Source: Collimonas arenae
GTDB lineage: Bacteria > Pseudomonadota > Gammaproteobacteria > Burkholderiales > Burkholderiaceae_D
Direction of reading: 5' to 3'
Assembly: GCF_001584165.1 (NCBI RefSeq)
Contig: NZ_CP013233.1
Coordinates: 2,364,620 to 2,428,619 of the forward strand
Length of the DNA: 64,000 nt
The position numbers and the translations under genes are program-made. The notes below the pieces were generated by a model. That model did not search any database, was not told the origin of the DNA, and was given only the letters and a program-made list of their open reading frames with translations. This document shows positions 49,704 to 59,497 of this stretch, piece after piece (the first letter of the stretch is position 1; each line of letters starts with the position of its first letter).

Positions 49704-49719
49704 TGTTAGCTACCGCACA
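49704..49719 (+). promoter_or_regulatory. 16-bp dyad site 1 (TGTTAG-CTAC-CGCACA)
   Basis: Member of the recurrent TGTRCG-NYAR-CGYACA motif. It is followed after 22 nt by TATGCT (49742-49747) and lies 64 nt before the 49784 start. Its right half plus GACCTC is identical to site at 55867. Confidence 0.6.
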
Positions 49720-49783
49720 GACCTCGCCGTCATCCTGCTTGTATGCTGATTGCATTGCCGTCACGCTCAAGAGGAATCATTCC

Positions 49784-49870
49784 ATGCACATCACTAAACG
49801 AATCATGCTGCCTGCCGGCATGGCTGCCTGTTCCTCGACCGCTGTAGGCGCAGGTATCGGTGCGCCATGA
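49784..49870 (+). CDS. 28-residue small protein, possibly truncated entericidin-like lipoprotein
   Basis: AGAGGA 8 nt upstream of the ATG. The peptide has a signal-like start (HITKRIMLPAGMAA) and 'ACSSTAVGAGIG', which resembles the entericidin A/B lipobox and 'TVAGAG' core. Its stop overlaps the next start (ATGA). It could be a real tiny lipoprotein, a leader peptide, or the head of a longer gene cut by a base loss. Confidence 0.4.
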   Translation: MHITKRIMLPAGMAACSSTAVGAGIGAP

Positions 49871-50019
49871 ATATCAACTTGATGCTCACCCCGCTTATTT
49901 CACTGATCTCCGGCATTCTCATCCTGGTGATTCCGCGCCTGCTGAATTTCATTGTCGCAATTTACCTGATCATCATCGGCGCCATCGGCTTGTTTGGCAC
50001 GGGGCATTTCCTGCGATGA
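49867..50019 (+). CDS. DUF3096 small membrane protein
   Basis: 50 residues, two hydrophobic segments: 'LMLTPLISLISGILILVIPR' and 'LLNFIVAIYLIIIGAIGLFG', the full-length DUF3096 pattern. Role unknown; family members often sit with stress-response genes. Coupled by overlap to the preceding 28-codon frame. Confidence 0.8.
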   Translation: MNINLMLTPLISLISGILILVIPRLLNFIVAIYLIIIGAIGLFGTGHFLR

Positions 50020-50046
50020 ATGCGCCTGCGTCGATAAAGCCCGGCA

Positions 50047-51221
50047 GTGAATCCGATAGAGAACGACACTGATCCGACCGATATCCCGATAACCGGGCCA
50101 CTTGCTCCACTTGCGCCGCATACGCAAACCAACGTCCGCGGCCTTTGCCTGACGATACTCGCCATTGTGGCTTTTGTATTTGCCTTGCAATGGGCGCAGA
50201 AATTCCTGATTCCGCTGGTTTTCGGCATCTTTGTCGCCTATACGCTGAACCCATTGGTCGTGTGGCTGGAGCGCTTGCGAATCCCGCGCCTCATTGGCAC
50301 TTGCATGGTGATGGCGACACTGTTGCTTGGCCTGGGCCAGGTAGCTTATTCGTTGCGTGGAGAATTCGAGTCTATCGTCGAACGCCTGCCTGCCGCGGCG
50401 CATCAGTTGTCACGTGCAATCGTCAAAGTGAAAAACGGAACCCAATCGGGTGAACTCAGCACCATACAGAAAATGCAGGCAGCGGCCACCGAGATTGAAA
50501 CCGCTGCCGGGCAAGTCGCCGGCCTCAAACCTGATGGCAAGCGAGCCAACAGCACAGCGCCTGCAGGGCCGGTGTTTCAGTTGAGCGAATGGATATTCGC
50601 AGGCTCGATGAGCGCGATGGTATTCATCGGTCAGGCGATCATGGTGACCTTCCTGGTGTTTTTTCTATTGCTTTCCGGCGACAAATTCAAGCGCAAGCTG
50701 GTGAAGTTGACCGGCCCTTCGCTGTCGAGCAAGAAGATCGCGGTCCATATTCTGTTTGACATCAATACGTCGATTCAAAGCTACATGTTCATGCTCCTGG
50801 TGACGAATGCCTTGCTGGCGGTCCTGATGTGGATCGCATTCCGCTGGATCGGCCTGGAGAACGCCGGTGCCTGGGCGCTGGCGGGAGGATTCCTTCACAT
50901 CATTCCTTACTTCGGCCCATGCTGATTGCCATTGCAACGGGACTCACCGCATTCATGCAGTTCGATTCTTTCCCGATGCTGCTGCTGGTTTCCGCGACAA
51001 CGCTGGCTATCGCGGCGCTGGTCGGCACATTCGTCACGACGTGGATGACTGGGAGAATCGCCAGGATGAATGCCGCGGCGGTATTTATCGCGCTACTCTT
51101 TTGGGGCTGGCTGTGGGGAATCTGGGGCATGCTGCTCGGCATCCCGATCGTCGTCGTCGTCAAGGTGATTGCCAAGCATGTGGACAGCATGAGTCCGATT
51201 GCCGAACTGCTGGGTGAATGA
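50047..51221 (+). CDS. AI-2E/PerM family transporter (one frameshift)
   Basis: About 391 residues from a GTG at 50047 (start uncertain). N-terminal pair of helices ('LTILAIVAFVFALQWAQKFLIPLVFGIF'), a soluble segment, then 'MLLVTNALLAVLMWIAF' and 'GGFLHIIPYFGP'. One missing C near 50920 separates it from 'MLIAIATGLTAF' and 'GWLWGIWGMLLGIPIVVVVKV', the canonical AI-2E permease C-terminus. The substrate in this subfamily is unknown. Confidence 0.83.
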
Positions 51222-51406
51222 CCGTCGGCAGTCATCAGCTTTCGCAGCCTGGGTTTGATAGCAACAATTGCTCTTATGTACGCTAACAGACGGTCACCGG
51301 ACGGTACATCGTGCAGACTTCTGACATAGACCCGATGCATTCATGCGACAGGGTCTTTGGATTGCCCCCTTTCATCCGCTGGAGATTGCAACGCAGGAGA
51401 ACTGGT

Positions 51407-52096
51407 TTGTCCACCTTCGAGAATCATCTGATCGCGCAACTTCCACGCAAGGACCGCACTCACCTGCTGGCGCTCTGCGAGTCGATAGAACTGAAGTCAC
51501 AGGAAGTGCTGTGCGAACCGGGAAAGCCAATTCGCTATGCCTATTTCCCGGTCCACAGTGCGATTGCGCTGCTGGCGCTGATTGACGGCAGTCCGGGAGT
51601 CGAAGTCGGCCTGGTCGGACGCGAAGGCATGCTCGGATCACAGCTGACCCTCAATGTACTCACGGCGCCGGTGCATGCGCTGGTGCAAGGGCCTGGCCTG
51701 GCGCGTCGGATTGACGCCGGCGCATTTCGCGACGAATTGCTGCGCAGTGTCGCGCTGCGGCGCAGCATGAACCATTATCTCTATATACGCATGACCCAAA
51801 TGGCCACTTCAGCGGTGTGCCTGCACTTTCACCTGATCGGACCGCGTCTGGCACGATGGCTGCTGATGACGCAGGATCGCGCACATTCCGACAATTTCCA
51901 CGTCACGCACGAGTCCCTTGCGCATCTTCTCGGCGTACGTCGCGAAGGCATCACCAATGCTGCCAGTGCCTTGCAGCGCAGCGGACTAATCGCGTATAGC
52001 CGCGGCGAACTCACGGTGCTTGATCGCAGCGGTCTGGAGGCTGCGGCTTGCGACTGCTACGCCGCCGATGAACTGTCTTACGCCGAATTCCTTTGA
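51407..52096 (+). CDS. Crp/Fnr-family regulator (stress island, copy 1; TTG start)
   Basis: AGGAG seven bases before the TTG at 51407 makes it the best start; the frame is open further upstream to 51311. Beta-roll domain ('LCEPGKPIRYAYFPVHSAIALLAL', 'VGLVGREGMLGSQLTL'), dimer helix, then HTH 'ESLAHLLGVRREGITNAASALQRSGLI'. The recognition helix keeps the Arg-Glu pair of CRP (RE in VRREG) but lacks the FNR-type residues. No cluster of N-terminal cysteines, so an oxygen-sensing Fe-S role is unlikely. Candidate binder of the 16-bp dyads. Confidence 0.83.
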   Translation: MSTFENHLIAQLPRKDRTHLLALCESIELKSQEVLCEPGKPIRYAYFPVHSAIALLALIDGSPGVEVGLVGREGMLGSQLTLNVLTAPVHALVQGPGLARRIDAGAFRDELLRSVALRRSMNHYLYIRMTQMATSAVCLHFHLIGPRLARWLLMTQDRAHSDNFHVTHESLAHLLGVRREGITNAASALQRSGLIAYSRGELTVLDRSGLEAAACDCYAADELSYAEFL

Positions 52097-52162
52097 GACA
52101 CGGGGGAAGATGGCACGGCCGCCCGGCGTTATTACTTTCCAGCCAACAAAACGTCCATCAAA

Positions 52163-52178
52163 TGTGCGTCAACGTACA
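52163..52178 (+). promoter_or_regulatory. 16-bp dyad site 2 (TGTGCG-TCAA-CGTACA)
   Basis: Best match to the consensus (all six left-half and six right-half bases). TAGATT at 52201-52206 follows after 22 nt; ATG at 52236 is 57 nt downstream. Confidence 0.7.
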
Positions 52179-52235
52179 TACAACTCTGCTTGCTTCCTGA
52201 TAGATTCAGACACACATCCCGGATCGGAGATCATC

Positions 52236-52631
52236 ATGCCAGTCAATCAATTCCGCATTTCAACGGCAACATGTCAAATCTTGCTGACGCTGCTGGTTTG
52301 CGCCGCATCATCTGCTGCCGTGGCTGCCGGTAACCAGTCAGAAGCTGTTGCCCGCTATCAGGCAGAACGGGCTGCCTGTAACAACGGCCAGTCGAATGAA
52401 TCACGCCCGACTTGCCTGAAAGAAGCAGGCGCCGCACTGCAGGCAGCAAGAAACGGCGGTCTCACCAGCGACCAGAACGCATATAATCAAAACGCCATGG
52501 CCCGATGCCAACCGCTGCCGCCGGACGAGCAGGATGCCTGTCGACGCAGGATCAATGGCGAAGGCACCAGCAGCGGCAGCGCACAACAAGGCGGGATATT
52601 ACGCGAGCTCACCGTTCCGGATCGCAAATAG
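52236..52631 (+). CDS. Small secreted Cys-containing protein
   Basis: 131 residues with a Sec signal (about 1-31, 'ASSAAVAAG'). The mature part has paired cysteines ('RAACNN', 'PTCLKEA', 'ARCQPLPPDEQDACRRRI') and is otherwise polar, as in conserved periplasmic proteins of Burkholderiales without assigned function. GGAG is 6 nt upstream of the ATG. Confidence 0.7.
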   Translation: MPVNQFRISTATCQILLTLLVCAASSAAVAAGNQSEAVARYQAERAACNNGQSNESRPTCLKEAGAALQAARNGGLTSDQNAYNQNAMARCQPLPPDEQDACRRRINGEGTSSGSAQQGGILRELTVPDRK

Positions 52632-52719
52632 CGCGTAGCTGAACCGTTAGTTTGGCAAAGTCCCGATGACGATCGGACCGAAGCTTTCCGGTTCACGTTC
52701 CGCTCTCATTGCGGAAGGT

Positions 52720-52890
52720 CTAATGCCGCTTCCTGGATTCATGCGTACTATCCCGATAGTCACCTTGGATCTTGACAATTTTTTTCCCGATGAAACCAGT
52801 GTAGTCAAGACTCTTGTGTCCGGCAATTTTTTTACTGGCTATCTCGCCCTTTATTTCTTTGTTTTTTCCCTTCACATGCTGCTTGTTCAT
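52720..52890 (-). CDS. CsbD-family-like small protein (antisense to a longer spurious frame)
   Basis: AGGAG six bases before the ATG at 52890. The 56-residue product 'MNKQHVKGKNKEIKGEIASK...' has the CsbD opening (VKGK.KE..G.I) and a lysine-rich, hydrophilic composition; the second half is less typical. A 98-codon frame on the opposite strand is its shadow. CsbD proteins are abundant stress proteins of unknown mechanism. Confidence 0.65.
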   Translation of the reverse strand: MNKQHVKGKNKEIKGEIASKKIAGHKSLDYTGFIGKKIVKIQGDYRDSTHESRKRH

Positions 52891-52987
52891 TGCTTTCTCC
52901 TGATAACCTGGTCACGTACAAATAAACATACCGGCTTGCCGTCGGTCTTCCGACGTTGCTAGGGTAGGCAAGGGACTCCCCCCTGTC

Positions 52988-53003
52988 TGTACGTCAGCGC
53001 ACG
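52988..53003 (+). promoter_or_regulatory. 16-bp dyad site 3 (TGTACG-TCAG-CGCACG)
   Basis: Between the CsbD-like gene (minus, 98 nt away) and the Crp/Fnr gene (plus). TAAAAT at 53027-53032 follows after 23 nt on the plus strand, fitting autoregulation of the regulator. Confidence 0.65.
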
Positions 53004-53182
53004 TAGACAGAACTGCCATTATTTCCTAAAATTTATCCAGTGCCAAAGGCCTAATTTCACCCTTGGAGTCCTTTCCATTGGAATGCAGGCTTCTGCTACT
53101 ATGTGCTGTATCGAACATAGTCAAAGTGCCAATCTCAATACCGGCACTCTCTCAGAAGTCAGTCCGGTATTGGAGTCAGATA

Positions 53183-53902
53183 ATGGTCAGCTCCGCAGAT
53201 CCGAGAAAAAATCACCTGCTCGCGGCGCTCCCAGACGCTGAATGGCAGCGCTGGTTGCCGCAACTTGAGGCAATCGATATGCCGCTGGGCCAGGTACTCT
53301 ATGAATCAGGGAGCACGCTGCAATATGTGTACTTCCCAACAACGTCAATCGTCTCGCTGCTGTATGTATTGGAAAATGGCGCTTCAGCCGAAATTGCGGT
53401 TGTCGGCAATGAAGGAGTAGTCGGCGTCTCACTTTTCATGGGCGGCGAAACCACGCCAAGCCGGGCCGTGGTGCAAAGCGCGGGACAAGGATTTCGACTA
53501 CGCGCGCGTTCGATGAAGGACGAATTCAACCGCGCCGGCCCCGTGTTGCATCTGCTGCTTCGTTATACCCAGGCCCTGATTACGCAGATGGCTCAGACTG
53601 CAGTGTGCAATCGGCACCATACGCTGGACCAGCAACTTTGCCGTTGGCTGTTGTTGAGCCTGGATCGTCTGCAAGGCAACGACTTGGTGATGACCCAAGA
53701 GTTAATTGCGAATATGCTTGGCGTACGTCGCGAGGGCGTTACCGAAGCTGCGCTTGGCTTGCAGGCTGCGGGCTTGATACGCTATGCGCGTGGCCATATC
53801 ACGGTACTCGACCGCGCAGGTTTGGAAAAACGCGCCTGCGAATGCTATGCAGTGGTCAAGAAGGAATCTGACCGATTGCTTCCAAATAAGTTGGCGACAT
53901 AA
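53183..53902 (+). CDS. Crp/Fnr-family regulator (stress island, copy 2)
   Basis: 239 residues from the ATG at 53183 (GGAG seven bases upstream); the longer frame from 53063 lacks homologous sequence. Beta-roll 'LYESGSTLQYVYFPTTSIVSLLYV', 'AVVGNEGVVGVSLFMGG', dimer helix, HTH 'QELIANMLGVRREGVTEAALGLQAAGLI'. The recognition helix is almost the same as that of the regulator at 51407 (VRREG[IV]T), so both should bind the same or similar DNA. Confidence 0.87.
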   Translation: MVSSADPRKNHLLAALPDAEWQRWLPQLEAIDMPLGQVLYESGSTLQYVYFPTTSIVSLLYVLENGASAEIAVVGNEGVVGVSLFMGGETTPSRAVVQSAGQGFRLRARSMKDEFNRAGPVLHLLLRYTQALITQMAQTAVCNRHHTLDQQLCRWLLLSLDRLQGNDLVMTQELIANMLGVRREGVTEAALGLQAAGLIRYARGHITVLDRAGLEKRACECYAVVKKESDRLLPNKLAT

Positions 53903-53925
53903 GAAACCGACAGAGCAAGAAGAAC

Positions 53926-53948
53926 AAAAAAGGCCGCACCCGGCGGCC
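53926..53948 (-). terminator. Rho-independent terminator for the CsbD gene
   Basis: GGCCGC/GCGGCC stem with 5-base loop; read on the minus strand it ends in TTTTTT. It lies 80 bp past the CsbD stop. Confidence 0.8.
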
Positions 53949-54028
53949 CAAATCAACATTTCTGTGTCACCAGAGTCGTCTGAATGAACGATGTCACGCA
54001 GACACTCGACCACACTGTACCTTCAATA

Positions 54029-54214
54029 TTATTTCTTGCCTGCTACGTCTTTAACCAATTCTTCAGCATCGCCAAGCGACTTTTCAAATTTCCCGTCGAC
54101 TTGCTTCTTTAGCCCCTTTGCTTGCTGCTCCTTGCTGCCAACGAGTTTTCCGGCTCCTTCTTGAATTTTGCCGGCGATGTCCTTGGAAACACCTTTCACT
54201 TGATCCTTGTTCAT
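54029..54214 (-). CDS. CsbD-family stress protein
   Basis: 61 residues, 'MNKDQVKGVSKDIAGKIQE' and 'GKLVGSKEQQAKGLKKQVDGK', the typical CsbD pattern with no signal or membrane segment. AGGAG upstream of the ATG. Probably in one transcript with the 25-residue membrane peptide 45 bp upstream. Confidence 0.9.
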   Translation of the reverse strand: MNKDQVKGVSKDIAGKIQEGAGKLVGSKEQQAKGLKKQVDGKFEKSLGDAEELVKDVAGKK

Positions 54215-54259
54215 ACATGCTTCTCCTGATGGTAGTTGATTAATTAATTGAAAAATTGA

Positions 54260-54337
54260 TCAATGCACAAAAACATAGAGCACAACCAGCAACACCATCG
54301 GCGCGCCCACAATCCAGCCCAACACGTATTTATCCAT
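54260..54337 (-). CDS. 25-residue single-pass membrane peptide
   Basis: The frame 'MDKYVLGWIVGAPMVLLVVLYVFVH' is one hydrophobic helix with a charged N-terminus. The ribosome site (GAAAG) is weak. A dyad site and -10-like TATAAC lie upstream on the same strand (54420-54461), which supports expression. Function unknown. Confidence 0.5.
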   Translation of the reverse strand: MDKYVLGWIVGAPMVLLVVLYVFVH

Positions 54338-54403
54338 GATCGTTCGCTTTCGGTTATTGAATGAGGTGGAATAGCGATTTTGGAGGAAGGGATTCCGTTT
54401 ACT

Positions 54404-54418
54404 TCACTCAATGAGTGA
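54404..54418. promoter_or_regulatory. Perfect palindrome TCACTCA-A-TGAGTGA
   Basis: A 15-bp dyad with a one-base centre, just downstream of the predicted -10 (54420-54425) of the minus-strand gene, where a repressor could block transcription. It is not a Crp-type site. Confidence 0.4.
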
Positions 54419-54445
54419 GGTTATAGGGCATATTTTTTTGTGGTC

Positions 54446-54461
54446 CGTGCGCTGTCCAACA
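54446..54461 (-). promoter_or_regulatory. 16-bp dyad site 4 (TGTTGG-ACAG-CGCACG, minus)
   Basis: On the minus strand, followed after 20 nt by TATAAC (54420-54425), upstream of the 25-residue peptide and csbD. Confidence 0.6.
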
Positions 54462-54478
54462 TTACGCGCATTTTTCTG

Positions 54479-54494
54479 CGTGAGCCAACGCACA
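54479..54494 (+). promoter_or_regulatory. 16-bp dyad site 5 (CGTGAG-CCAA-CGCACA)
   Basis: Right half perfect, left half 4 of 6. No clear -10 at the expected spacing, so it may be an auxiliary site for the 54641 gene. Confidence 0.4.
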
Positions 54495-54544
54495 TGCCTG
54501 CGGGCACAGCCTCATTCATCTGATCTGCAGCCTGGCTCTCCCTA

Positions 54545-54560
54545 CGTTCGATAGCGTACA
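54545..54560 (+). promoter_or_regulatory. 16-bp dyad site 6 (CGTTCG-ATAG-CGTACA)
   Basis: TAATAA (54584-54589) follows after 23 nt; the ATG at 54641 is 80 nt downstream. Confidence 0.55.
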
Positions 54561-54640
54561 GATGAATTTCACGGCACTAGCAATAATAAGAAAAACACGA
54601 GAAATACGAGTCACTCAACTTCAATTTCATCAAGGAAAAA

Positions 54641-54817
54641 ATGAACTCCGCCATAACAGTTCAGCTGGATACTTCTCCTGCGCAACCGGAGCCCGATGCT
54701 ATCCCGGCCGACGAAGAGAGTACTGAAAGCGCGTTGGATGAGGCGTTGGAAGAAAGTTTTCCAGCGAGCGATCCCATCGCCATCACCATAGAGAAATCGC
54801 CATGTCCACCGATTTGA
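54641..54817 (+). CDS. Small acidic protein with DEALEESFPASDP motif
   Basis: 58 residues; the central 'ALDEALEESFPASDPIAI' is a motif I know from short, uncharacterised proteins conserved in Burkholderiales and rhizobia. CAAGGAAAAA precedes the ATG. No membrane or signal segment. The end overlaps the next gene by 16 bp in another frame. Confidence 0.75.
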   Translation: MNSAITVQLDTSPAQPEPDAIPADEESTESALDEALEESFPASDPIAITIEKSPCPPI

Positions 54818-54975
54818 TCGAATTCCGGATGGCATGGTGGTTCAAGGTATATACCTTTGGCGTGACGACCATGTGCATACTCACCAATAGCGAACCGGAC
54901 CAGAAAAAATCGCTCTACTGGTGCACCAAGGCGATACGAGCAAGCTATAACGGTAAGCCGCTGAAGATTTCATGA
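54802..54975 (+). CDS. 57-residue uncharacterised protein
   Basis: 'MSTDLIEFRMAWWFKVYTFG' then 'TNSEPDQKKSLYWCTKAIRAS'. It overlaps the preceding gene, which suggests coupling. Not recognised; the aromatic-rich N-terminal half could be amphipathic or membrane-associated. Confidence 0.5.
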   Translation: MSTDLIEFRMAWWFKVYTFGVTTMCILTNSEPDQKKSLYWCTKAIRASYNGKPLKIS

Positions 54976-55460
54976 ATTCGTGTGCTCGGCGATCCGCTTG
55001 TTCAGCGAGCCGCAGCACAAAGATAAATTTGCTTATGTGGCGTAACGTACAGAAAAGTACGGTAAATCTGGTTACAGTACCATCACCTTCCCCACCTGGC
55101 CTCCGAAGCCAGGAGGGAAAGCCTGACGATATTTGCACTGCGCGCGCTTTGAAGAGGGAGTTGCGCTACCGGCAATTTCATCGAAGGATGCAACGTATAA
55201 ATATCGGACTACCGGGGCTGGCGGTCGGGAAATATACCAGCACCAACACAAAACGCATTTCATTGCTATTTGCAAGATACGTTCTACGAGCAGAGCGGCC
55301 GGAATACTGGCTGGAGAGCGAAACAGCCCGCAAATTCCGCCGCTCTGCCTGGCAAGCACCCCACAGGCGATATCCCACGAAGAAGATGTTATCGTTGTTT
55401 ACTCAACTCTCCCGTGTCTTGTCCCGTGGAATTGTTGACGGCACCACCAATCACCAATCA
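54976..55460. other. Gene-poor stretch with a predicted promoter but no recognised product
   Basis: About 485 bases. It contains the dyad at 55036-55051 and a -10-like TACAGT, but no convincing open frame starts downstream on the plus strand before 55973. The long plus-strand frame here is low in coding character and runs antisense across the glucoamylase fragment. Confidence 0.4.
55036..55051 (+). promoter_or_regulatory. 16-bp dyad site 7 (TGTGGC-GTAA-CGTACA)
   Basis: TACAGT (55073-55078) follows after 21 nt. The transcript it would drive carries no recognised gene; a small RNA or a decayed gene is possible. Confidence 0.5.
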
Positions 55461-55829
55461 TCAAGTACAAGAAATTGTCGAATACTCGCACCGCCAGATG
55501 CGCCGCCCCGTCTGCATGTCCAGGAAGTGGTAATAGAACCCGTGATGTCCGGATGCGTCGGATTCCGGTCCTTGCGGACTGTTCCGGAAAAATCGCAAGA
55601 TCTTCAGGGCACGTCGTACCGCAGCTTCGCGGCCAATGAAATCGCGTTCGACGGTGATCGGATATGCGGCAAATGCCAGGCCCACGGCGGCGATGCTGGC
55701 TGGCCAATCGGGCGCACTCTTATCGACCACAAGGCCATTTTCCTCATTGGTCTCGTGCATGAAATAGCTGAATGATTCGCGCTGCAACATGTTCAGTTCA
55801 ACTGCAGTTGTCAGCGATTTTATGTTCAT
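55461..55829 (-). pseudogene. Truncated glucoamylase-family (PF10091-like) gene, N-terminal fragment
   Basis: Reads 'ELNMLQRESFSYFMHETN', 'NGLVVDKSAPDWPASIAAVG', 'YHFLDMQTGRRIWRCEYSTI' and then stops, where full proteins of this family continue for some 300 more residues. It is the standard start of stand-alone glycoamylase-like proteins that often neighbour cyclic-glucan synthase genes. Nothing matching the missing part was seen in the adjacent 500 bases. Confidence 0.7.
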
Positions 55830-55866
55830 GATGGCATCCGATTTTCTCATTCAAGACGAGCAGCTT

Positions 55867-55882
55867 AGTGCGGCAGCGCACA
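55867..55882 (+). promoter_or_regulatory. 16-bp dyad site 8 (AGTGCG-GCAG-CGCACA)
   Basis: TATCGT (55904-55909) follows after 21 nt; the DUF3309 ATG is 90 nt downstream. Right half and flank (CGCACAGACCTC) equal those of site 1. Confidence 0.65.
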
Positions 55883-55972
55883 GACCTCCCGACACCAACA
55901 GCCTATCGTGTGCATAGACGTTCACACCGCCGGTTGTGAACTACAACTCTTATACCCTTTCAGGAGAACACC

Positions 55973-56125
55973 ATGGGCACCATCCTACTCGTCATTCTCA
56001 TTCTCATACTTATCGGCGCCTTTCCGACATGGCCGCACAGCCGTAGCTGGGGTTACGGCCCAAGCGGCATCACTGGCGTGATTGTTATCGTCCTGATCGT
56101 GATGCTGCTGACCGGACGACTGTAA
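55973..56125 (+). CDS. DUF3309 small membrane protein
   Basis: 50 residues: 'MGTILLVILILILIGAFPTW' then 'SWGYGPSG' and 'VIVIVLIVMLLTGRL', the complete DUF3309 pattern with two helices. CAGGAG lies upstream of the ATG. Function unknown. Confidence 0.88.
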   Translation: MGTILLVILILILIGAFPTWPHSRSWGYGPSGITGVIVIVLIVMLLTGRL

Positions 56126-56138
56126 GCGTTAAGCAGTC

Positions 56139-56170
56139 AAAAAAAGTGCCTCAGATGAGGCACTTTTTTG
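56139..56170. terminator. Rho-independent terminator (bidirectional)
   Basis: Stem gtgcctca/tgaggcac with a 2-base loop (56146-56163), A-run on the left and T-run on the right, serving the DUF3309 gene (plus) and the DUF883 gene (minus). Confidence 0.9.
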
Positions 56171-56233
56171 TTCGACAAACACATCCAACTTCCAGCACAC
56201 GGAAAATCATCGCGTTTGATGCCAATCCGGCAT

Positions 56234-56536
56234 TTATCTGCGCGACAACGCCATACCGAGGAAAAATCCGACACCGGCCGCGGCGGCAATCGTGCACCAT
56301 GGATTTTCCGTCATGTAGTCCTCTGCCGAGCCGACCATTTCCTTGCCTGCGACGACTGCGTCGGCCTGTGCCTCCCGCGCTTTTGTTAGCGCAGTATCGA
56401 GCAGCAGCATGGCGCGGCTGCGCATCTCTTCCGCCTTGTCGCCTGTCAGGGCGGCGGCAGCCTGAAACAACGCCTGCGAATCTCTCAACAAGGCTTTCAC
56501 GTCATTATTGACGGCTTTCAAATTTGATTCCAACAA
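56234..56536 (-). CDS. DUF883/ElaB-YqjD-type ribosome-associated membrane protein (TTG start)
   Basis: AGGAGG five bases before TTG at 56536 argues for this start, although an ATG at 56554 is in frame. The product is a long amphipathic helix followed by the C-terminal anchor 'DYMTENPWCTIAAAAGVGFFLGMALSRR' (abbreviated region 73-100), as in ElaB/YqjD, which tether ribosomes to the membrane in stationary phase. Confidence 0.85.
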   Translation of the reverse strand: MLESNLKAVNNDVKALLRDSQALFQAAAALTGDKAEEMRSRAMLLLDTALTKAREAQADAVVAGKEMVGSAEDYMTENPWCTIAAAAGVGFFLGMALSRR

Positions 56537-56643
56537 GGTAACCTCCTGAAACATATGGATAAATAACAGAGCTATCGACGGATTACTGCAAACACCGCAT
56601 GCGGCTTCTGCAATTTCCTGGAACGCTCCACCGTGGCCTGCCG

Positions 56644-57180
56644 TTATGCCAGCAAATCGCGCATGTCGTCTGCGTGCTCTTCTTCCTTGGCCATGATGCC
56701 GACCAGCATATGCCGGGTTGTCGGATCGGTTTCACCGATTTTTTCTATCATCTGGCGATAAACCTCAATGGCAACTCGCTCGGCAATCAGATTTGCCTTG
56801 ACCATGGACTGAATGCTGCTGGAATCGTCATACTCGGCATGGCTGCGCTCGGCCAATGTCGCTGGATTGAAATCAGGCTGACCATTCAACTGTACTATCC
56901 GCTCAGCTAGTTGATCCGCGTGCTCCTGTTCTTCCAGCGCATGTTGCAGGAACTCGGCCTTGATCGGGCCGTTCTGCACTCCGCTGATCGTGTAGTGATG
57001 CCGCTTATAGCGCAACACACAGACCAGTTCAGTCGCCAGCGCGCCGTTTAACATATCGATTATCTGCTTGCGATCAGCCTGGTAGCCGACAGTCACGGGA
57101 CCGTCGTCAAGATGCTTGGCAGCCGCCCGAATGGCGGCGGTGTTAATCCCCTCGGGGATTGCTTTTTTCACTTCATGCAT
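56644..57180 (-). CDS. Bacterioferritin-like ferritin
   Basis: 178 residues from the ATG at 57180 (GAAAG upstream). Four-helix ferritin fold with iron ligands in 'NGALATELVCVLRYKRHHY', 'FLQHALEEQEHADQLAERI', 'NLIAERVAIEVYRQMI' and 'MAKEEEHADDMRDLL'. An extended N-terminus ('EGINTAAIRAAAKHLDDGPVT') is typical of the Burkholderiales/rhizobial subgroup. It stores iron or protects DNA. The longer frame to 57489 is not conserved. Confidence 0.88.
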   Translation of the reverse strand: MHEVKKAIPEGINTAAIRAAAKHLDDGPVTVGYQADRKQIIDMLNGALATELVCVLRYKRHHYTISGVQNGPIKAEFLQHALEEQEHADQLAERIVQLNGQPDFNPATLAERSHAEYDDSSSIQSMVKANLIAERVAIEVYRQMIEKIGETDPTTRHMLVGIMAKEEEHADDMRDLLA

Positions 57181-57640
57181 GATGATCTTTCGGTAGGGAT
57201 ATGGATAAGAACACGTCATGATGATCGCGCAGCTGCTTTGCAACTGATATCGTAAATGCCGATCTCGACGCAACGCTTGAAGCACCCATTCTGGACCGCA
57301 ATGCCGAGGGTATCGGTACGCTGCCGCACATAGTTCGATTCTTTGCGCTGAAAACCGGCAGCGCATCCCTCCGGTTCGGGGTGACCTCGCTCTCAGGCGA
57401 CGCTCCGGGCATCGCCTGTGTGCGTTGCCGCACGGACGCGAAGCCCCTATACCGCATCCTGTATCAATCAAAATGCAGCACCATGACATCGTTTTTCAGG
57501 CGCATTCTGCCAATGGTGCAGCAGCCCCATGATGGTGCTATCGGCAACCGGGTCTGGCCGAATGATTCTCCAGCCCACAAGCCGGCCGCTTGCCGGCACA
57601 ACAGCGGTGTAACGATGCCAACCCTACGTTCACGTGATTC
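57181..57640. other. Divergent intergenic region with one dyad, no gene recognised
   Basis: About 460 bases between the ferritin (minus) and Nramp (plus) genes. It contains the dyad at 57419-57434; open frames crossing it show no known pattern. Confidence 0.4.
57419..57434 (+). promoter_or_regulatory. 16-bp dyad site 9 (TGTGCG-TTGC-CGCACG)
   Basis: Left half perfect and right half 5 of 6, but the central TTGC departs from NYAR and no -10 sits at the expected spacing. Weaker member. Confidence 0.4.
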
Positions 57641-58882
57641 ATGGCTGAAAAACTCGGCCCGGGACTGATTACAGGCGCCGCCGACGATGATCCAAGCGGC
57701 ATCGCCACCTATTCGCAGGCTGGCGCGCAGTTTGGCTTCAACATGTTATGGACCTTGTTCCTGACCTATCCCTTGATGGTCGGCATTCAAGTCATCAGCG
57801 CCAAGATAGGACGCGTCAGCGGCCACGGTCTGGCAACCAACATCAGCCGGCATTATCCGGCCTGGCTTTTATATTCGATCGTCGGGCTCTTGTTGGTAGC
57901 CAACACCATCAATATCGCGGCGGACGTCGCTGCCATGGGCGAGGCACTGAAGTTGTTGAGCGGCGGCCCAAGCCATCTTTACGCGCTAGGCTTTGGACTG
58001 CTGTCACTGACGCTGCAGATTTTCATTCCCTACAACCGGTACGTCCGCATACTGAAATGGTTGACACTTGGGCTGTTGGCGTATGTCGCCACGGTATTTG
58101 TCATACATATGCCGTGGGCACAAGTGCTGAGCAAGACCGTCTGGCCTCAGCTTTCCTGGAAGCCGGAATTCATCACCACAGTCGTCGCCGTATTCGGCAC
58201 CACCATCAGTCCTTATCTGTTCTTCTGGCAGGCTTCGCAGGAAGTCGAGGAGCAACAAGCCAATCCACAATCGAAACCGCTAATAAGGGCGCCGGAACAG
58301 GCGAAAACGAATTTCCACAGGATCAAGATCGATACGCTGATCGGCATGGGGTTTTCCAATATCGTGGCCTATTTCATCATGCTGACCACTGCGGTCACGC
58401 TCGGGCTACACGGCATCACCGATATCCAGACCTCGGCGCAAGCCGCTTCCGCGTTACGTCCTATTGCCGGCGAGTTCGCCTTCTGGCTATTCAGCGCCGG
58501 CATCATCGGTACCGGGCTGCTTGCCGTTCCTGTCCTGGCCGGCTCAGCAGCCTATGCGATGGCGGGCGCTTTTCATTGGCATAACGGCCTGGAATTGAAA
58601 CCGGTGATGGCCAAAAGATTTTACGGCATCATCGCCGTCTCGACGTTGCTCGGTGCAGCGCTCTGTTTCACACCGATCGATCCGATCAAGGCATTGTATT
58701 GGAGCGCCGTATTAAATGGCGTCATTTCAGTGCCGATCATGGCCGTCATGATGCTGATGGCGGCACGGCGCGACATCATGGGGCAATTTGTCATCAGCAC
58801 CCGACTGAAAGTGCTGGGCTGGGTCTGCACCGGCGTCATGGCGCTTGCCGTGCTGACGATGTTCTGGACACTCGGGAAGTGA
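57641..58882 (+). CDS. Nramp-family divalent metal transporter
   Basis: 413 residues, eleven or so helices. TM1 carries 'GPGLITGAADDDPSGIATYSQAG', where canonical manganese/iron carriers have DPGN; the DPSG form is found in a divergent Nramp clade linked to Mg2+/Mn2+ or Al3+ transport. TM6 has 'AFWLFSAGIIGTGLLAVPVLAGSAAYAM' (positions about 280-307) without the usual MPH motif. The start may be a few codons further upstream if a base is missing. Confidence 0.83.
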   Translation: MAEKLGPGLITGAADDDPSGIATYSQAGAQFGFNMLWTLFLTYPLMVGIQVISAKIGRVSGHGLATNISRHYPAWLLYSIVGLLLVANTINIAADVAAMGEALKLLSGGPSHLYALGFGLLSLTLQIFIPYNRYVRILKWLTLGLLAYVATVFVIHMPWAQVLSKTVWPQLSWKPEFITTVVAVFGTTISPYLFFWQASQEVEEQQANPQSKPLIRAPEQAKTNFHRIKIDTLIGMGFSNIVAYFIMLTTAVTLGLHGITDIQTSAQAASALRPIAGEFAFWLFSAGIIGTGLLAVPVLAGSAAYAMAGAFHWHNGLELKPVMAKRFYGIIAVSTLLGAALCFTPIDPIKALYWSAVLNGVISVPIMAVMMLMAARRDIMGQFVISTRLKVLGWVCTGVMALAVLTMFWTLGK

Positions 58883-58934
58883 CTGACTGCCCGAAACAAC
58901 AAATACAGAATGTCCGCATCCGGCTTTTTTCCTA

Positions 58935-58950
58935 TGTGTGCCAGCGCACC
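58935..58950 (+). promoter_or_regulatory. 16-bp dyad site 10 (TGTGTG-CCAG-CGCACC)
   Basis: TAATCT (58972-58977) follows after 21 nt. The next plus-strand gene is the collagen-like lipoprotein, implying an untranslated leader of roughly 180 nt. Confidence 0.55.
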
Positions 58951-59164: not shown

Positions 59165-59497
59165 ATGAAATATTCAACACAATTCATTGTCGCTGCGGCG
59201 GCATTCTCGTTGGCGGGATGTTTTACACTGCCAACCGGACCTGCCGGGCCACAAGGTGCTACCGGCGCCACCGGCTACACCGGGGCGACTGGATATACAG
59301 GCGCAACTGGTAGCACCGGTCATACCGGGGCTACCGGCGGCACCGGCGCCACGGGTGACACGGGCAGCACTGGCGCCACCGGAGATACCGGCGCCACTGG
59401 CTACACCGGAGCGACGGGCAATACCGGCGCAAGAGGCAGCGCTGGAGCAAGGGGTAGTACAACTCCGGAAACTGTGGTGGTGCTGCCGGCACGCTAA
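59165..59497 (+). CDS. Collagen-like repeat lipoprotein
   Basis: 110 residues: signal with lipobox SLAGC (Cys19), then about 25 Gly-X-Y triplets ([16 protein letters not shown]...) rich in Thr, and a short C-terminus. AAGGAATC lies upstream of the ATG. Bacterial collagen-like proteins form surface trimers. The repeat is encoded by variable 9-bp units (ggc acc/gcc act), so its length may change between strains. Confidence 0.85.

Follow-up and report, generated by a model that had tools for sequence, protein, structure and literature searches.

We investigated a recurrent DNA dyad in a stress-gene island of Collimonas arenae (contig NZ_CP013233.1), located at 49.6-59.2 kb of the window, the 64-kb stretch analysed here within a 4.72-Mb single-contig genome. 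The dyad occupies a fixed position relative to promoters, with a fixed spacing to the -10 box; it is conserved and is associated with regulator and DUF3309 genes. It is very probably a class II operator, bound by a widespread and unnamed Crp/Fnr subfamily whose member here, regulator 2 (53183..53902, plus strand), would activate both its own gene and an apparently mobile island with a presumed role in stress. In this model, a regulator 2 dimer would bind TNTGTDCG-NYRN-CGHACA-K centred at -41.5, overlapping a weak -35 element (GAC), and, acting as a class II activator, would bring RNA polymerase to a -10 box lying 21 nt beyond the dyad; activation and polymerase contact are proposed because of the dyad's position and fixed spacing. 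The regulated set would comprise its own gene and genes for CsbD, DUF3309, DUF3096 and ferritin-like proteins, probably those for collagen-like, acidic and secreted proteins, and a few distant genes (Ysc84, RcnB). Class II control by Crp/Fnr proteins is as a kind known, and this particular operator may have been described before.

A 20-bp dyad concentrated in the island

An initial annotation of the window had listed ten copies of a 16-bp dyad, TGTRCG-NYAR-CGYACA, and all ten 16-mers were found where it placed them. Without using that consensus, we counted exact dyads over several arm lengths and gaps, under a crude open reading frame (ORF) mask, in 80 named loci around relatives of regulator 2 (the best 80 of 589 confirmed). 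The top non-coding 5-mer dyad was GTGCG-N4-CGCAC, with 11 copies; the next at the same gap had 6 and none at any other gap exceeded 8. Among 6-mer dyads with a gap of 4, TGTGCG-N4-CGCACA ranked first in masked and unmasked DNA alike (3 and 14 copies), and at other gaps single different 6-mer words reached 4 and 24. Exact TGTDCG-N4-CGHACA occurred 70 times in the 80 loci; the runner-up among 180 permuted half-sites occurred 19 times. The annotated dyad is real, but the actual motif is longer, at about 20 bp (TNTGTDCG-NYRN-CGHACA-KAC), and looser at position 4.

We scored sites with a palindromic, 20-column position matrix of the form T-N-TGT-D-CG-N-Y plus its mirror half, built from 56 sites of other loci, none titled Collimonas; after TGTD it has C at 0.97 and G at 0.95, with A at 0.01 at position 5. 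At a threshold of 16 bits it found 197 sites in 74 of the 80 loci, compared with 0-3 for 30 column-permuted matrices; 57 of the 197 are regulator-promoter sites, mostly members of the training set. Between 49.6 and 59.2 kb of the window, 13 sites reached 10 bits (200 shuffled versions of the island averaged 0.2, with at most 2), and the remaining 54 kb contributed one. The ten best window sites, eight of those originally listed together with sites at 53102 and 57315, all fall within 49.7-59 kb, with 54446 and 54479 ranking 12th and 14th. Elsewhere in the genome, 11 stretches of 20 kb (219,791 positions) yielded one site of at least 16 bits and none of at least 18, versus nine of at least 18 in the island.

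Placement of the motif between rather than inside genes was borne out: all 13 sites are non-coding in a stretch that is 32% non-coding (binomial P ~4e-7, by our own gene model). An excess over shuffled sequence likewise appeared with TGTRCGNYARCGYACA at up to three mismatches, which gave 41 window matches against 19.4 (s.d. 5.2, maximum 32) in 100 shuffles. Genome-wide, by contrast, the initial motif was no commoner than its reversed control when up to two mismatches were allowed (71+53 versus 64+68 strand matches), making that consensus too loose for single-site calls beyond the island. Outside the island the matrix was applied to chosen stretches, and the other genome sites reported here came through the initial consensus.

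Promoter geometry and the sign of control

In 59 of the 76 orthologous loci that include upstream sequence, the 260 nt before the regulator gene contain a site with no more than one mismatch, as against 37 of 960 random 240-nt windows from the same loci. TANNNT begins exactly 21 nt past the dyad in 20 of these 59 promoters (mean 0.48 at distances outside 20-22 nt), 140 other sites read in both directions gave 30 matches at 21 nt (mean 1.07 elsewhere), and 10 of 19 DUF3309 promoters with a site share this spacing. Seven of the 13 oriented window sites have TANNNT 20-22 nt downstream. The eight -10-like hexamers that had been named at 20-23 nt are all present, but the relatives prefer 21 nt rather than that range.

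Directly after the dyad, 50 such promoters read K-A-C (G 0.60 or T 0.34, then A 0.90 and C 0.72). This amounts to a partial TTGACA where the -35 element would lie, 17 bp from the -10 box. With the first base of the -10 hexamer taken as -12, the predicted geometry centres the dyad at -41.5, overlapping the -35 element with the -10 box at a fixed distance, as expected from sequence for a class II promoter; orthologue promoters, the fixed -10 spacing and the DUF3309 promoters all back the class II position first proposed for the Collimonas sites. In the relatives' promoters, a C precedes the -10 box in 0.58 of cases, which resembles the sigmaS pattern CTATACT.

The same protein bound at the same place could act with the opposite sign, repressing transcription or playing a dual role by obstructing the -35 element. 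The overlap with -35 would suit this, and autoregulation through repression is common, but the fixed 21-nt spacing to the -10 box is needed for activation and not for repression. The -35 elements are also poor, and sigma70-type promoters in the region show no excess (6 versus 6.8 in shuffles), so we regard repression or dual control as unlikely.

Co-occurrence of dyad and regulator

We next considered which protein the dyad accompanies across genomes, using 200 Burkholderiales genomes, called regulator-positive when they encode a relative of regulator 2 at E<=1e-20, and a strict 20-mer pattern, TNTGTDCGNYRNCGHACANA, which undercounts. The strict dyad is present in 38 of 65 regulator-positive and 6 of 135 negative genomes (P = 3e-17, kinship ignored), consistent with the proposed tie to a Crp/Fnr protein; 99 of 107 strict dyads fall in positive genomes, and the reversed control pattern gave one match in each of three genomes. 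Across a phylum sample of 299 genomes, some of them common to the first sample, the strict dyad occurs in 16 of 22 genomes with a close relative (E<=1e-75) and in 8 of 277 others (P = 4e-16, kinship ignored). None of the 34 phylum-sample genomes having distant homologues only contains it, and 20 upstream regions of distant homologues (32-42% identical, outside the class) revealed no recurring dyad, one scoring 15.8 bits and the rest at most 12.1. For the 75 of 107 dyads listed, a regulator gene stands within 300 nt in 21 cases and within 10 kb in 45.

These distributions also bear on whether the dyad belongs to some other Crp/Fnr protein, either a general one or one of three paralogues, with regulator 2 merely a target. 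This genome does encode four related regulators with similar recognition helices (VRREGV, VRREGI and, in the paralogue at 2749387, VRRESI), and strict dyads occur in six genomes in which nothing matched at E<=1e-20. Nevertheless, close relatives of regulator 2 predict the dyad in both samples whereas distant homologues do not, and dyads cluster near these regulator genes, which makes another binder quite improbable.

One genome (G015) contains 30 exact TGTDCG-N4-CGHACA matches (2 in the control), with no regulator and no strict 20-mers.

Two regulators in the island

Regulator 2, the proposed dyad binder, is a 239-aa protein with the recognition helix VRREGV, and Collimonas proteins 89-92% identical to it exist. 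Pfam matches to cNMP_binding (PF00027) and HTH_Crp_2 (PF13545) place it in the Crp/Fnr superfamily, with a cNMP-type beta-roll, a long dimer helix and a C-terminal winged helix-turn-helix, and its structure model (pLDDT 89.7) has the CRP/FNR fold, with CRP and FNR chains heading the similarity lists. PADLOC matched neither regulator of the island. Sites precede 70% of the 81 VRREGV genes for which sufficient upstream sequence was available. The paralogue at 2749387 has a 16.1-bit site upstream.

Regulator 1 (51407..52096, plus strand; helix VRREGI) is about 40% identical to regulator 2; HTH_Crp_2 was matched on a longer ORF from 51311, and its TTG start was chosen by eye. The annotation had linked the dyad to both local proteins, but the association favours regulator 2, and regulator 1 is preceded only by a weak, asymmetric site (51277..51292, plus strand; 10.0 bits, CAGACT 21 nt on). 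Its promoter has TATGTRCG... followed by CAGACG, the same as in the same-genus genome G007, and this arrangement would fit cross-regulation. Three regulator-1-type genes (that behind 51277-51292 and those of L129 and L252:15930) have such an asymmetric site, TATGTACG or TATGTGCG and then CAGAC, instead of a full dyad.

The regulator alignment, in which most rows other than the window protein start at the match start and N-termini are partly visible, contains three invariant cysteines, C142, C219 and C221. C142 belongs to an invariant CxxxH that closes the dimer helix, while C219 and C221 form a CxC that opens an added C-terminal helix; the two motifs suggest a metal or redox site. Neither Pfam nor NCBIfam gives the subfamily a separate name, and the plasmid records seen label its members only as 'Crp/Fnr family' regulators.

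Sites and candidate target genes in the island

The best site in the window, 53102..53117 (plus strand; 23.9 bits, TACCGG 21 nt on), precedes regulator 2 and would be its autoregulatory site. It was absent from the initial list, as were a 22.1-bit site on the minus strand at 57315..57330 (CAGAAT 21 nt on), before the ferritin-like gene of Dps/bacterioferritin type at 56644..57180 (minus), and the weak site before regulator 1. The ten listed sites are present, but two good ones had been overlooked and one was probably assigned to the wrong strand. This last is 52988..53003 (20.5 bits), where the dyad stands but a minus-strand reading (GAC flank, TACCCT exactly 21 nt on), towards a gene at 52720..52890 (minus) for a 56-aa protein CsbD-like by eye and without a Pfam match, fits better than the possible plus-strand reading (TAAAAT, 23 nt).

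Along the plus strand, the dyad at 49704..49719 (18.4 bits, TATGCT 22 nt on) points towards the DUF3096 gene (49867..50019), whose homologue in one relative's locus (L075) has a 23.4-bit site. The dyad at 52163..52178 (22.1 bits, TAGATT 22 nt on) points towards a gene for a small protein whose N-terminus is signal-like (52236-52631), and that at 54545..54560 (22.7 bits; AATAAT 21 nt and TAATAA 23 nt on) towards a gene for an acidic 58-aa protein (54641..54817, plus). Before the DUF3309 gene (55973..56125, plus) lies the site at 55867..55882 (plus; 20.2 bits, TATCGT 21 nt on), which in genome G007 reaches 25.3 bits with TATCTT at 21 nt, and before the collagen-repeat protein gene (59165..59497, plus) the site at 58935..58950 (plus; 18.5 bits, TAATCT 21 nt on). 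All of these genes are proposed targets. An Nramp-type metal transporter gene (57641..58882, plus) is a possible one, starting 207 nt past the dyad at 57419..57434 (plus; 18.5 bits, CATCCT at 20 nt).

Three of the originally listed sites are the weakest. The minus-strand dyad at 54446..54461 (11.5 bits; TATAAC 20 nt or TAACCT 22 nt on) points towards a 25-codon ORF and a CsbD gene (54029..54214, minus; 38.1 bits versus a Pfam cut-off of 40), itself a proposed target; the dyad at 54479..54494 (plus; 10.0 bits) lacks a good -10 box. The third, at 55036..55051 (plus; 13.3 bits, GA flank, TACAGT 21 nt on), lacks a convincing downstream gene. The stretch 55036-55460 may encode a small RNA or have lost its gene, and an Rfam search across 49-60 kb found no match at E<=0.5. 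The 25-codon ORF (54260-54337, minus), between the 54446 dyad and the CsbD gene, encodes a small membrane-type peptide, MDKYVLGWIVGAPMVLLVVLYVFVH. An AI-2E transporter gene (50047-51221) is broken, through a frameshift or a sequence error, into frames at 50047-50925 and 50829-51221 that overlap.

To assess targets beyond this island, we used a DUF3309 set picked by family alone, blind to the dyad (55 matches in 45 of the 200 genomes). A site of at least 14 bits lies within 400 nt upstream of 19 of the 55, in line with the enrichment expected before DUF3309-type genes; 200 permuted matrices gave a mean of 0.12 and a maximum of 5 on the 49 genes located as ORFs, and the remaining six, read directly, are siteless. 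Sites before csbD, also anticipated, appeared in the 80 loci, although these were picked through the regulator and their target counts are not independent evidence: sites of at least 14 bits precede three of three CsbD homologues, one of one DUF3096, one of two collagen-like and four of ten NdvB-type homologues, and sites of at least 16 bits lie within 400 nt of all four ferritin-like homologues. Behind 65 sites with a fair -10 box are 127 candidate ORFs, whose top Pfam families are HTH_Crp_2 (9, partly the regulator itself) and CsbD (8), with cNMP_binding (7), histidine-kinase ATPase (6), BON (4), glycine zipper (3), DUF3309 (2) and DUF3096 (1) also present. The local stress regulon first suggested is supported by these data but is not only local, as strong sites also precede a distant Ysc84-domain gene (35580; 25.6 bits, TAGAGT at 21 nt) and a distant RcnB gene (2760727; 20.7 bits).

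Weighing the class II operator

Several observations count against a class II operator of regulator 2. At the level of promoters, TANNNT stands at exactly 21 nt in only 4 of the 13 window sites, and a site with no more than one mismatch is missing from 17 of the 76 orthologue promoters. One paralogue in this genome (G000:C1:3784392-3785093), which shares VRREGV and is 72% identical to regulator 2, has no upstream dyad. The co-occurrence P values ignore relatedness, and 27 of the 65 regulator-positive genomes lack a strict dyad while six negative genomes have one; this genome is among the 27 because its sites are degenerate. Among targets, 36 of 55 DUF3309 genes have no site, those of positive and negative genomes do not differ significantly (a site before 18 of 46 and before 1 of 9, respectively; Fisher P = 0.14), and sites of at least 14 bits precede only two of seven DUF3309 homologues in the 80 loci. 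No site was found there before homologues of the acidic, secreted, DUF883 and AI-2E proteins (none of one each) or Nramp (none of two), and 87 of 637 ORFs of at least 200 aa have a site, regulators and shared-promoter neighbours included. Three plasmid regions (Burkholderia, Variovorax and Paraburkholderia) and one B. cenocepacia region contain few and mostly weaker sites.

A reading of the dyads as chance matches or as structural repeats (REP-like, methylation or uptake sequences) with no regulatory role would accord with the absence of genome-wide enrichment of the initial motif at up to two mismatches, but their non-coding placement, exact -10 spacing, conservation in orthologue promoters and co-occurrence with the regulator leave this explanation next to no credibility.

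Many proteobacterial genomes hold one or several such regulators, often near csbD, DUF3309, DUF3096, BON or ferritin genes, and the regulator records and families that we saw are named by domain only. A defined operator would allow regulons to be read from sequence, tie these small stress proteins to one regulator and offer a route to testing its signal. More tentatively, and with considerable doubt, a horizontally spread subfamily with an operator of its own may govern mobile stress islands in Beta- and Gammaproteobacteria and one or more other classes, sensing metal or redox state through CxxxH and CxC, with the sensor coupled to the DNA-binding domain unlike in CRP and FNR.

Plasmid islands and comparison with known systems

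Regulators 74-82% identical to regulator 2 are encoded on plasmids of Burkholderia multivorans (NZ_CP090706.1), Paraburkholderia sp. 22B1P (NZ_AP028999.1) and Variovorax sp. WDL1 (NZ_LR594691.1). The B. multivorans and Paraburkholderia islands also hold DUF3309, Ysc84 and PRC-barrel genes, and one or other of them CsbD, DUF3096, AI-2E, Nramp and a glucoamylase-type protein; because plasmid-borne islands carry part of the gene set, the island appears to be mobile. Dyads precede Ysc84 in both, and DUF3309 in Paraburkholderia. The Variovorax region has the regulators in common with these islands but not the target set. All seven sites of at least 13 bits in these three annotated regions are intergenic, by an incomplete gene table. 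We also considered a low-oxygen locus of Burkholderia cenocepacia as a counterpart and dropped it, because a universal-stress domain was absent from the 25 families listed, out of 27, for the homologue's 40-kb neighbourhood (36 ORFs).

The closest parallels are the CRP and FNR systems, and the inner bases of the dyad differ from both, as originally noted: the matrix matches neither the CRP operator, TGTGA-N6-TCACA, nor the FNR/ANR box, TTGAT-N4-ATCAA. FNR and ANR recognize a different half-site; the N-terminal 4Fe-4S cysteine cluster of FNR is absent from the window protein, which, started at 53183, has no cysteine before C142, and regulator 2 adds a C-terminal helix with CxC. Escherichia coli CRP class II promoters share with the present system the dimeric CRP fold, a 16-bp dyad with outer TGT...ACA and a -41.5 centre over the -35 element, but the CRP arm is TGTGA rather than TGTDCG. 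The glutamate/arginine GE...RS signature with which CRP contacts cAMP is not apparent by eye in the regulator alignment, and what we take to be the counterpart of CRP R185 in the regulator 2 helix is a glutamate.

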